Positions 10,422 through 12,628 of a DNA stretch of 20,114 nucleotides are shown here, in pieces. The position numbers and the translations under genes were made by a program. This DNA comes from a virus. Below the pieces are notes generated by a model. That model had not been told where the DNA came from. It saw only the letters and a program-made list of their open reading frames with translations, and searched no databases. Location of the stretch: the IMG/VR virus record IMGVR_UViG_3300017782_000311, positions 1-20,114 of that record. One strand, given 5' to 3'. The number at the start of each line of letters is the position of its first letter. Position 1 is the first letter of the stretch.

Positions 10422-10470
10422 CATTGTTTATCGATATACAATGAGTAGCAACTTAATTGCAACAGGTCAA
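10422..10470 (-). promoter_or_regulatory. integrase-operon promoter overlapped by a 22-bp palindrome
   Basis: Leftward, TTGCAA (10462-10457), 17 bp, GTATAT (10439-10434) fit a sigma-70 promoter. TTGACC (10470-10465), 17 bp, TACTCA is a second possible pairing. The -10 and expected start lie inside a near-perfect palindrome at 10422-10443 with outer arms CATTGT and ACAATG and centre ATCGAT; only one base pair of the 22-bp dyad is off. This is the layout of a repressor operator. Confidence 0.6.
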
Positions 10471-10498
10471 GAAAAATCAATAGGTTATTAGCCCTTAT

Positions 10499-10530
10499 TT
10501 TGCACTACTATTTGCACTAGATTTGCACTA
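10499..10530. repeat. three phased TTTGCACTA repeats, attP arm
   Basis: Exact copies of TTTGCACTA begin at 10499, 10511 and 10522, so the spacing is 12 and 11 bp, about one DNA turn. They lie 94 bp left of the tRNA-like core. Phased direct repeats beside a core site are typical of integrase arm-binding sites. Confidence 0.65.
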
Positions 10531-10571
10531 AAGGCAGTTGAAATTTACAATTCAAGCTTTAGAATAGGCAT

Positions 10572-10610
10572 AAAAAAAGTGGCTCTTACAACGAAACTGT
10601 TGTAAAAGCC
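10572..10610 (-). terminator. hairpin terminator ending the leftward late operon
   Basis: GGCT plus TTACAAC (10581-10592) pair with GTTGTAA plus AGCC (10599-10610), with one mismatch and the 6-nt loop GAAACT. Read leftward the stem is followed by AC and seven T, a strong Rho-independent terminator. Read rightward it is followed by TATATATATTTTT, so it may work in both directions. It lies between the attP arm repeats and the core, and would shield the integrase promoter from late transcription. Confidence 0.7.
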
Positions 10611-10623
10611 TATATATATTTTT

Positions 10624-10668
10624 GCCCTTATAGCTCAATTGGTAGAGCAATTGATTTGTAATCAATAG
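10624..10668 (+). other. attP: attP core: 5' half of tRNA-Thr(UGU)
   Basis: This segment folds as the first part of a tRNA: acceptor 5' strand GCCCTTA, D-arm GCTC-AATTGGTA-GAGC, anticodon arm ATTGA-TTTGTAA-TCAAT with anticodon TGT, then AG. The sequence stops resembling a tRNA right after the anticodon arm, and no T-arm or acceptor 3' strand follows. It is therefore not a functional gene. It is the identity segment used for integration into a host tRNA-Thr gene. Confidence 0.85.
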
Positions 10669-10844
10669 AACTACCTAATTTTACTTTATTTTTTACTGTT
10701 TGCACTACACAAGCACTATAGCTAATAAATTATATGTAAACTTATTAGCAACATAGTGCATGATATTTACCCACCCATATCCCTGTGGTTACCCCACAAC
10801 TTAATCAATCAGTATGAAAATACTTTAGATTGATTCCAAACTGT
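10669..10844. promoter_or_regulatory. right flank of attP with arm repeats and a stem-loop
   Basis: I see no gene between the core and the first basic-protein gene. TTTGCACTA is at 10699-10707, a partial copy, GCACTA, at 10713-10718 in the same 11-bp phase, and an inverted TAGTGCA at 10754-10760. At 10803-10835, AATCAATC, AGTAT, loop GAAA, ATACT and GATTGATT make a two-part stem-loop just downstream of the last late gene. It lacks a T-run and may protect the 3' end of the message rather than end transcription. Confidence 0.55.
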
Positions 10845-11003
10845 TTAAGCAAAGCCTCTTTTAGCTTTTGCGTAAGCTTTACGACTAATGGTTGATTTCT
10901 TTTTGCTACGACTTATGCCTTTTTTCTTTCGTCTATTAATATTAAACCATAAGCCCTTTTTAGCAATCTTACCTGATTTAGTTTTATGATAACCTTTTTT
11001 CAT
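10845..11003 (-). CDS. very basic small protein, 52 residues
   Basis: The product begins MKKGYHKTKSGKIAKKGLWF and ends RKAYAKAKRGFA. By my count 21 of 52 residues are Lys or Arg and none is acidic. Its ATG overlaps the stop of the AT-hook gene (TAATG), and it is the last gene of the late operon. Such composition fits binding to DNA or RNA, for example in packaged DNA or in host nucleoid disruption. The start MKKGY and a KSG motif resemble the 87-residue protein two genes upstream, which starts MKGYKLGVHKSRSGG, hinting at shared ancestry. Confidence 0.65.
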   Translation of the reverse strand: MKKGYHKTKSGKIAKKGLWFNINRRKKKGISRSKKKSTISRKAYAKAKRGFA

Positions 11004-11101
11004 TATCTTTTCTTTTTACCTTTTTTGCCTTTTTTGCTTTTTTTCTTTTTAGGTGGTCTTCCTCTTTTAGAACCATAAGTTCCCATACCCATTGGTGACA
11101 T
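11003..11101 (-). CDS. AT-hook mini-protein, 32 residues
   Basis: The whole protein is a glycine/methionine head (MSPMGMGTYG), an AT-hook (SKRGRPPKKKK, residues 11-21) and a lysine tail. Fifteen of 32 residues are Lys or Arg. The GRP core flanked by basic residues is the motif that inserts in the minor groove of AT-rich DNA. It has a good ribosome site (AAAGGAAAATACT) and its stop overlaps the next start. In a phage genome this AT-rich it could bind almost anywhere. A role in DNA condensation in the capsid or infected cell is inference. Confidence 0.7.
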   Translation of the reverse strand: MSPMGMGTYGSKRGRPPKKKKSKKGKKGKKKR

Positions 11102-11142
11102 AGTATTTTCCTTTTTTTATTTGTTGATGTGTGTTTGTTAAT

Positions 11143-11406
11143 TCAGCATTTCCATTTTCTTAATGCTTTATTAATTCTTGAATTTGGATCTCTAGCTGTT
11201 TTTGCAGAGGTAAGTTTTTTCTTCATACCTAACATTCTCAAACAAAAGCTTTTACGTCTTTTAGCTGCTTTAGATCCTTTTTTTACTTTACCAGTAACAG
11301 CCATTTTTAATTTGCTACCAGGATTCTCTCTTCTATATTTAGCTACACCTTTAGCAGTTAAACCACCTGACCTAGATTTATGAACACCTAGTTTGTAGCC
11401 TTTCAT
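11143..11406 (-). CDS. basic protein with DUF6321-like sequence, 87 residues
   Basis: The protein matches the pattern I know as DUF6321: a SGGLTAKGVAKYRRENPGSKL start, AVTGKVKKGSKAAKRRKSFC in the middle and DPNSRINKALRKW at the end. Twenty-nine of 87 residues are Lys or Arg. Family function is unknown. It is widespread in marine phages of T7-like and other types. It starts by TAATG overlap with the exported protein upstream and is followed after 41 nt by the AT-hook gene. The two-Cys pattern (Cys55, Cys87) is not a clear metal site. Confidence 0.72.
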   Translation of the reverse strand: MKGYKLGVHKSRSGGLTAKGVAKYRRENPGSKLKMAVTGKVKKGSKAAKRRKSFCLRMLGMKKKLTSAKTARDPNSRINKALRKWKC

Positions 11407-11630
11407 TAAGCACCCTCATGTTTAGTTGAGGTGTCATAATAACAATTAAATTTTACTATAATTTCATGTTTATTAACTTCTTTGTTACCTAGCTCTTTAA
11501 TTTTATCAATAGATTCCTCATAACCACCAATTAAACACTCTGAAAAACTATCATAGTGTCTTAAAAAGTGAGGACTCATACAATCGCCAGCAATTTGGCT
11601 GCATATAATCATTACCAAAGCTACTTTCAT
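11406..11630 (-). CDS. small exported protein with cysteines, 74 residues
   Basis: A hydrophobic start (MKVALVMIICSQIAGDC) fits a signal peptide or lipobox-like anchor, and further cysteines lie in SFSECLIGG and KFNCYYD. It is likely located in the periplasm with disulfide bonds. It overlaps the holin gene by ATGA, so it belongs to the lysis group. A spanin-like or lysis-timing role is possible, but I do not recognise the family. It resembles in outline the 72-residue protein at 12633-12851. Confidence 0.55.
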   Translation of the reverse strand: MKVALVMIICSQIAGDCMSPHFLRHYDSFSECLIGGYEESIDKIKELGNKEVNKHEIIVKFNCYYDTSTKHEGA

Positions 11631-12007
11631 TTTTTCTTAAACAAGTCCAATCCTGGCTTCAAACCATAAATACTTCCAAAAATTCCAACTGTGAGCCAAA
11701 CATACCAGTCAGGCAAGTTGTTAAAGTACTCAAAGAATAAATCTAATTTTTGTTGTGCGTCAGGCTGTCCGCTAAATACAGAATAGGCTATAACTAGAAT
11801 TGGTAAAATTACAATCGCCAAAACTATTTCATCTTTTATAGAACCAGCTTGTGCATCTAATGTACGAACTTTAAAATCAACTTCACCTTTTGCCATTTTT
11901 TCTGCATGATTTCTATGTGCTAAACTTTCTAGTTGTTCAGCCTCTTTTTTATTTTTATATACAGCTGCACCTGTCTTTACAGCCATGCCAATTAAATTAA
12001 ACCACAT
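11627..12007 (-). CDS. holin, GTA-type three-helix family
   Basis: This protein probably forms the inner-membrane lesions that let the endolysin reach the wall. It has an amphipathic N terminus, a charged linker, then GSIKDEIVLAIVILPILVIAYSVFSG (membrane segment about 61-78) and PDWYVWLTVGIFGSIYGLKPG (about 101-118). The KDE entry to the first segment and the WY entry to the last are seen in the holin group first described in gene transfer agents. The basic C terminus (LFKKK) would stay inside. It is directly downstream of the endolysin, one base apart. Confidence 0.68.
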   Translation of the reverse strand: MWFNLIGMAVKTGAAVYKNKKEAEQLESLAHRNHAEKMAKGEVDFKVRTLDAQAGSIKDEIVLAIVILPILVIAYSVFSGQPDAQQKLDLFFEYFNNLPDWYVWLTVGIFGSIYGLKPGLDLFKKK

Positions 12008-12008
12008 A

Positions 12009-12434
12009 TTATTTTCCTGACGTTTTCATCATAGAAGCTAAATGTTCACATCTAGATTTTGTTTGTTTATGCCACTTCGAATCAATCATTTGATTAGCTG
12101 CCTCTTCATAATTTTCAGTTTCTAAAGCAGCAAACATTTTTTTAAATTTAGAAACATTACCTATTCCTAATTGAAACACCATTTCACAAACTATACCTTG
12201 TGCAATATAATTAATATTTCTATTGCCAATCAAAGTTCGACTATTGTATAATGCGTTTTCAAAATCTTTTTCAAAAATTTCATTAAGGTAAGTTTCGTCG
12301 TATTCTTTATTATCATCCCAATGATCCTCCACACACAGATGACCATATCCAACTGTTCTTTTACCTAATGTATCTTCGTAAACTTTGTTTCTAAAACCCT
12401 CATGAGCTTTAATTCTTGCTTTTACTTCTTCCAT
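12009..12434 (-). CDS. endolysin, T4-lysozyme-type (GH24)
   Basis: This muramidase cleaves the bacterial wall at lysis. The T4 catalytic triad is fully present with exact spacing: Glu12 (HEGFR), eight residues, Asp21 (YEDTLGK), five residues, Thr27 (TVGYGH). At 141 residues it is a single-domain enzyme without an added binding domain. No signal peptide is seen, so export depends on the holin. The ribosome site is weak and lies in the preceding small gene, suggesting coupled translation. The next gene is the holin. Confidence 0.9.
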   Translation of the reverse strand: MEEVKARIKAHEGFRNKVYEDTLGKRTVGYGHLCVEDHWDDNKEYDETYLNEIFEKDFENALYNSRTLIGNRNINYIAQGIVCEMVFQLGIGNVSKFKKMFAALETENYEEAANQMIDSKWHKQTKSRCEHLASMMKTSGK

Positions 12435-12440
12435 AAATTG

Positions 12441-12551
12441 TTATTTTTTTGATTGTCTTCTTAATATTGAAACTCTTTTTAACCATATCCAAGTATTTAA
12501 ACTTGACACTTTCCTCTCAATATATGACAAAATTTTATCCAAAAGCACCAT
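12441..12551 (-). CDS. amphipathic small protein, 36 residues
   Basis: The frame starts MVLLDKILSYIERKVSSLNT and ends WIWLKRVSILRRQSKK. A strong ribosome site (GAAAGGGGAACT) precedes the ATG. The product is an amphipathic helix followed by a Trp-rich segment and a basic tail, suggesting association with a membrane surface. It ends 6 nt before the endolysin start. A small lysis helper such as an antiholin-like peptide is possible but unproven. It overlaps the cysteine-rich frame at 12497-12628. Confidence 0.6.
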   Translation of the reverse strand: MVLLDKILSYIERKVSSLNTWIWLKRVSILRRQSKK

Positions 12552-12628
12552 AGTTCCCCTTTCACTATTTTTTTGCACACACATTTTCTTTTTTTGCAAA
12601 TACAACTTTCACATTTACATTTTTTCAT
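12497..12628 (-). CDS. cysteine-rich mini-protein, about 43 residues
   Basis: The frame starts MKKCKCESCICKKRKCVCKK. Six cysteines lie in the first 18 residues in the order CxC, xx, CxC, xxxx, CxC, a metallothionein-like density. The remaining 23 residues are mixed and overlap the next gene in another frame, where they look less constrained. The ATG lies 4 nt after the preceding stop. The ribosome site is weak (GAG). Its role might be metal binding in the infected cell. The short length leaves chance possible. Confidence 0.5.
   Translation of the reverse strand: MKKCKCESCICKKRKCVCKKIVKGELWCFWIKFCHILRGKCQV

Follow-up and report, generated by a model that had tools for sequence, protein, structure and literature searches.

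Small basic proteins, including an AT-hook miniprotein, encoded together in marine phages: candidate DNA-binding components of the virion

Introduction

Tailed phages are generally thought to neutralise their packaged DNA with small cations and not with proteins. In phage T4, the internal head proteins IPI-III and Alt, which are small and basic, are packaged in the head and ejected from it. A different strategy is found in chlorovirus PBCV-1, where the basic virion proteins A278L, A282L ("basic adaptor domain") and A437L are associated with the packaged DNA; the paper describing them contrasts this strategy with that of bacteriophages, for which it reports no evidence of basic proteins neutralising much of the DNA, and remarks that tight packing leaves little room (PMC3281028).

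The locus described here codes for three small, strongly basic proteins of 87, 32 and 52 residues, hereafter called the trio. Its likeness to the T4 internal proteins is that of small basic proteins and does not extend to a sequence match; comparison of the trio with PHROG and Pfam gave no named match of this kind. The PBCV-1 proteins share with the trio the presence of basic modules, some of which are fused to larger proteins; however, the trio has no Pfam match to such a domain, and the host of PBCV-1 is an alga. The 32-residue protein has, like HMGA-type AT-hook proteins, an RGRP core placed between lysines, but the members of its family have only 20-50 residues, consist almost of the motif alone and carry a GTYG lead. 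Comparison of the trio with Pfam gave no HU, H-NS, Lsr2 or Dps match.

Gene Content of the Locus

The window, i.e., the whole stretch of DNA analysed, is a viral contig of 20,114 bases from a temperate, pelagiphage-like genome (terminase small subunit, integrase, repressor and lysozyme). The features of the region are the following.

10581-10610, minus strand: terminator-like hairpin, 12 pairs with a T-rich tail, downstream of the trio
10845-11003, minus strand: 52-residue basic protein of the phrog_25774 family, net charge +21
11003-11101, minus strand: 32-residue AT-hook miniprotein, MSPMGMGTYGSKRGRPPKKKKSKKGKKGKKKR, net charge +15
11143-11406, minus strand: 87-residue basic protein, DUF6321 (PF19846) at residues 9-85, net charge +27
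11406-11630, minus strand: 74-residue protein, phrog_19893, directly upstream of the trio in the same operon
11627-12007, minus strand: 126-residue protein with a hydrophobic stretch, phrog_2524 by profile match
12009-12434, minus strand: lysozyme, the lysis gene of the trio operon (Phage_lysozyme, PF00959, E 1.3e-12)

A preliminary description of this DNA, made from its sequence, had reported three small proteins that are one third to one half Lys and Arg and are made late and together, and both statements agree with the present data. The K+R content is 33%, 47% and 40% for the 87-, 32- and 52-residue proteins, respectively; the first has two acidic residues and the others none, and the pI of all three is 11.6-11.9. 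The genes belong to one late, overlapping run: the stop codon of the 74-residue protein overlaps the DUF6321 start as TAATG, 41 bases separate the 87- and 32-residue genes, and the 32-residue stop overlaps the 52-residue start, again as TAATG. The sequences GAGGG (SD-like) and AAGGA are found ahead of the starts of the 87- and 32-residue proteins, respectively. The position of the hairpin (10610-10581; one found, 0.6 expected in shuffles) fits the trio being the end of a leftward late operon. In many relatives, too, the phrog_2524 gene precedes the basic cassette.

In the window the trio comes after the lysis genes and not after head genes; here and in HTVC100P-like phages the distance by which it follows lysozyme or peptidase genes is no more than about 1-2 kb, as might be expected of cationic lysis peptides, or envelope-disrupting peptides, belonging to a lysis cassette. 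Such a role is very unlikely, since the same genes lie inside the head cluster in podoviruses, none of the three proteins contains a hydrophobic segment, and the prediction for DUF6321 is a folded, soluble domain.

Composition could in principle generate spurious lysine-rich ORFs here, the DNA being about 70% AT and the codons for lysine rich in A. Of 500 dinucleotide-preserving shuffles of positions 10425-12010, not one contained three ORFs with a net charge of at least +15, or even a single ORF with at least +20; thus, AT-richness does not explain the trio. All three families are moreover conserved at the protein level in hundreds of phages, with varied codons at the conserved residues. Shuffles and conservation together rule out a compositional artefact, whose residual probability is negligible.

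Other elements of the window deserve mention. A degenerate tRNA-like stretch (10624-10704, plus strand; Rfam tRNA 31.3 bits, E 0.0043; apparent TGT anticodon), which received no ARAGORN call, is located between the integrase gene and the trio and probably represents the attachment site of the phage, within a tRNA gene of the host. The minus strand also contains a 43-residue ORF dense in Cys and Lys (MKKCKCESCICKKRKCVCKK...; 12497-12628), metallothionein-like in look, and the gene for a phage-encoded MT-A70 family methyltransferase (2302-2913, E 2e-27).

The AT-Hook Miniprotein

The 32-residue protein had been described as an AT-hook followed by a lysine tail, and its core, KRGRPPKKKK, is indeed canonical. 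Pfam gave no match for it at E up to 1, a model for an AT-hook being very short; for the miniprotein in general, no family above chance was found in PHROG and Pfam, and an NCBIfam search gave nothing. The family consensus is MPxGKGTYGSKxGRPPKKK. The pattern GTYGxKxGRP, which was picked without regard to neighbouring genes and whose own residues are conserved by construction, is present in at least 120 IMG/VR contigs and in about 30 phage records; most matches lie at the N-terminal end of a short ORF that continues into a lysine tail (median K+R of the tail, 58%), and the residue ahead of GRP is mostly V, K or R, being valine in 67 of 126 cases. Carriers include P-SCSP1, S-SBP1, SS120-1, Jormungand, HTVC022P, HTVC115P and the Roseobacter phage CRP-171, in which the gene is often unannotated. 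AT-hook ORFs located between head genes are absent from the deposited annotations at L173 5903-5974 (P-SCSP1u, 23 residues), L298 2995-3057 and L295 3001-3060; because such ORFs are missing there, standard proteomics searches cannot find the miniproteins.

The idea that the AT-hook is confined to AT-rich phages was dropped, since carriers reach a GC content of 0.555. The preliminary description had suggested a specificity for AT-rich DNA, and this is not supported by the GC content of the AT-hook-bearing contigs, which spans 0.30-0.56 with a median of 0.39; "AT-hook" is thus used here for a motif and not for a demonstrated preference.

The DUF6321 Protein

The 87-residue protein matches the Pfam family DUF6321 over the entire model (positions 1-72 of 72; 72.6 bits with a cut-off of 28.5; E 4e-20). 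A tblastn search with this protein found DUF6321 in 412 of 50,697 phage records, nearly all from cyanophages and pelagiphages, and at least 599 IMG/VR stretches encode relatives of it. Most copies in the set analysed are free-standing proteins, typically of 80-120 residues; the remaining ones are domains, usually C-terminal, of longer proteins. Among the distinct sequences fitting the motif of the two cysteines (SFC and the C-terminal WxC), 83 have both residues, 13 have lost both and none is mixed, ten further sequences falling outside the motif; the pair, Cys55 and Cys87 in the 87-residue protein, could form a disulfide or be a packing pair.

The AlphaFold2 model of the protein is confident and mainly helical (pLDDT 90.4, pTM 0.71). 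Foldseek found no fold match for it in the PDB, and its confident BFVD matches were other DUF6321 proteins only. Sequence searches of solved structures revealed no chain of DUF6321 or of the GLYANIH family described below, so that both are absent from the modelled parts of deposited virions. The single PDB match by sequence was to uL29, which is not significant (E 0.48). This match, together with a composition like that of small ribosomal proteins, would point to proteins that bind RNA and not DNA, in association with ribosomes or mRNA; such a function is quite unlikely, considering that the core of an AT-hook is a motif for the minor groove of DNA, that no ribosomal Pfam match was obtained for the trio, and that the genes are linked to packaging and head genes.

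Two further observations concern related modules. A basic family of 79-86 residues, phrog_7595, ending in RARHxC...YWSCKKW and thus, like DUF6321, in a Cys motif, occupies the DUF6321 slot upstream of the 52-residue type in loci of related phages (L131, L124, L093, L099 and others). In addition, L042, L050, L016, L021 and L163 encode long proteins in which small modules, basic or containing Cys, are strung together, with pieces of DUF6321 and of the AT-hook among them; the cyanomyovirus T4-GC119 is among the carriers of such proteins.

The 52-Residue Protein and Its Counterparts

The 52-residue protein matches phrog_25774 (E 1.9e-13, profile positions 3-36 of 42), and relatives are encoded by at least 536 IMG/VR stretches. 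The sequence from the window matches 15 pelagiphages by tblastn, and the isolates HTVC100P, HTVC024P, Greip and HTVC010P carry this type; a tblastn search of phages with a 43-residue relative gave no matches, probably owing to low-complexity masking. The AlphaFold2 model has a pLDDT of 82.7 but a pTM of 0.46, and no significant fold match in the PDB. The gene directly before this one encodes, in 36 of 87 distinct loci, a short peptide with at least 35% K+R, and in most of these the stop of the peptide overlaps the start of the 52-residue type; the peptide is sometimes the AT-hook, otherwise one of several unrelated K-rich peptides. The relative in HTVC010P (L322 2501-2641; from 26739 in HTVC010P) is unannotated, and its frame shifts after SRSKK in an A-rich run, which is either a sequencing error or a real frameshift.

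In podoviruses, the position of the 52-residue protein is occupied by GLYANIHAKRKR proteins (GLYANIH), one of which matches phrog_16028. Alignment of the two families by hhalign gave a probability of 84% over 15 columns, limited to the "KKGLYxNI" stretch, and the locus L267 carries the 52-residue type where its siblings carry the GLYANIH type; if the two families are counted as equivalent, this is mainly by position. The preliminary description had also noted that the 52- and 87-residue proteins share an MK(K)GY...KSG start: the letters are there (8 of 17 identical), but homology does not follow, and a common origin is not supported, hhalign of the families giving a probability of 1.5%.

Distant relatives of the C-terminal half of the 52-residue protein are present on chromosomes of Bacteroidota and Planctomycetota (L306, L310-L315; e.g., Pedobacter); they are sporadic, occurring in 4 of 81 genomes of one family, and have a K-rich N-terminal tail. 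Their existence suggests that the family may serve cellular DNA, and all three proteins of the trio resemble DNA-binding proteins by charge; the trio might then act late in infection by coating the host DNA, thereby taking over host chromatin and transcription and freeing RNA polymerase or nucleotides for the phage. This function is unlikely, as late operons, beside head genes, are an unusual place for host takeover genes, and one DUF6321-bearing protein is labelled a virion protein. The displacement of host nucleoid proteins proposed in the preliminary description likewise found no positive support, the position of the genes and their relatives being late and head-linked.

Association with Head Genes

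Members of all three kinds occur within 600 bp of the AT-hook in 19 loci, counting the GLYANIH family as counterpart of the 52-residue protein, and in 13 of these loci the run includes scaffold or capsid genes as well. Several orders were observed: scaffold, AT-hook, DUF6321 and GLYANIH (or the 52-residue type); scaffold, AT-hook, GLYANIH, DUF6321 and major capsid protein, as in HTVC022P and Jormungand; and major capsid protein, AT-hook, DUF6321, GLYANIH and tail tube, as in P-SCSP1u, where the last gene is tail tube A. In S-SBP1 the order is scaffold, hli, AT-hook, DUF6321 and GLYANIH. In cyano- and pelagipodoviruses the set either separates the scaffold gene from that of the major capsid protein or comes immediately after the latter; in HTVC115P the gene position is after the portal. 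The set is found in phages of SAR11, Prochlorococcus, Synechococcus and Roseobacter-type hosts, and HTVC010P has DUF6321 together with the relative of the 52-residue protein; in Syn5 the trio is missing from the interval between capsid protein and tail tube A. The conservation in marine phages that had been envisaged is therefore present, the trio being found in distant phages beside head and packaging genes.

The linkage was compared with chance in 110 AT-hook loci selected by the pattern alone. A partner family lies within 600 bp in 34 of them, versus a mean of 9.8 and a maximum of 17 for random positions in the same contigs, and 76 have no partner within this distance. DUF6321 lies within 1 kb in 40 of 80 loci of the 52-residue type (null mean 13.9, maximum 23). 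With queries limited to T7-type and HTVC115P-type proteins, there is no enrichment of portal, scaffold and major capsid protein as a pool in the 1 kb around the AT-hook (16, with 17.9 expected), while scaffold alone is enriched within 500 bases (10 versus 4.2, maximum 9). When large neighbours within 1.5 kb were scanned against PHROG, the families obtained were mainly those of portal or adaptor, scaffold, terminase and capsid; in a distant control of 65 ORFs, scaffold was not among the 25 families listed, and portal and terminase were present.

Two of the three member pairs also occur fused, and member genes often overlap. S-RIP2 gp20 (100 residues) consists of a GTYG head that has lost the GRP core, followed by DUF6321, and an ORF of 381 residues joins DUF6321 to an AT-hook; GLYANIH is fused to DUF6321 in ACG-2014j gp106 and its relatives, one gene after the terminase gene gp16 in cyanomyoviruses. 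Taken together, gene order, proximity and fusions support a late, head-linked set.

The same data bear on the main rival of the DNA-binding reading, according to which the proteins are head-assembly cofactors that bind acidic partners (scaffold, procapsid interior, portal or terminase) and aid assembly or maturation, DNA binding being secondary or absent. The location between scaffold and capsid protein genes in many podoviruses, that after the portal in HTVC115P, the fused form near the terminase small subunit gp16 and the predicted folded domain of DUF6321 all agree with it. Such a role appears nonetheless rather improbable: an AT-hook core with a lysine tail is a nucleic-acid-type sequence, the replacement of the short partner by unrelated K-rich peptides better suits bulk charge than a specific interface, and in the window the genes come after the lysis genes.

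What appears new here is the conservation of the trio and the AT-hook miniprotein family; DUF6321 and phrog_25774 were already catalogued, without function. In the searched literature, which covers few subscription journals, we found no mention of DUF6321, no description of the trio or of the linkage of DUF6321 to AT-hook, GLYANIH or head genes, no earlier description of the AT-hook miniprotein from pelagiphages or cyanophages and, as the preliminary description had stated, no described function for the trio.

Evidence from Virions

S-SCSM1 gp029 (517 residues, DUF6321 at its end) is labelled as a virion protein; it is a multi-module relative, unlike the free-standing 87-residue protein. The S-SCSM1 virion proteome is given as 45 phage proteins by mass spectrometry (PMC9602691), and we read the label as meaning that gp029 is one of them. 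P-SCSP1u, a phage of Prochlorococcus MED4, carries the full trio, and its capsid, solved by cryo-EM at 3.2 A, is described as major capsid protein alone, with ordinary DNA layers (PMC10575957); thus, the trio proteins in this virion are few or disordered, if any, and disordered or low-copy proteins would escape such a structure. On a charge scale, one three-protein set provides +63, and about 127 sets would be required to neutralise 10% of a 40-kb genome, about 13 sets for 1%.

Proposed Function

As the function is a prediction, the claim is kept to a known kind, that of small basic DNA-associated viral proteins. We propose that the trio proteins are small polycations, produced late and linked to the head, that attach to the phage DNA when it is packaged and become part of the virion, a reading to which we assign a probability of about 50%; DNA binding, packaging of the free-standing proteins and any effect on compaction are inferred. 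The proteins would bind the phage's own DNA as the heads fill and would end in the virion with the genome, probably in modest copy number. The AT-hook miniprotein would contact the minor groove and its lysine tail would follow the backbone; DUF6321 would form a folded unit, in which the conserved cysteine pair could form a disulfide, and the 52-residue protein may act as a small two-helix basic clamp.

A broader proposal, which we advance only tentatively, is that of a phage chromatin module, i.e., a portable polycationic trio that coats the genome during packaging and is ejected with it, across unrelated head types of abundant marine phages.

If the trio is present in the virion, the packaged DNA of tailed phages would have a protein component that has so far escaped notice, since gene calling, tryptic proteomics and icosahedral averaging all readily lose very small, lysine-rich proteins. 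The phages that carry the set are among the commonest viruses of the ocean. Genetic engineering has been reported for T7-like cyanophages (PMC8776855); P-SCSP1u, which is cultured and structurally solved, has all three genes, and this makes the idea directly testable.
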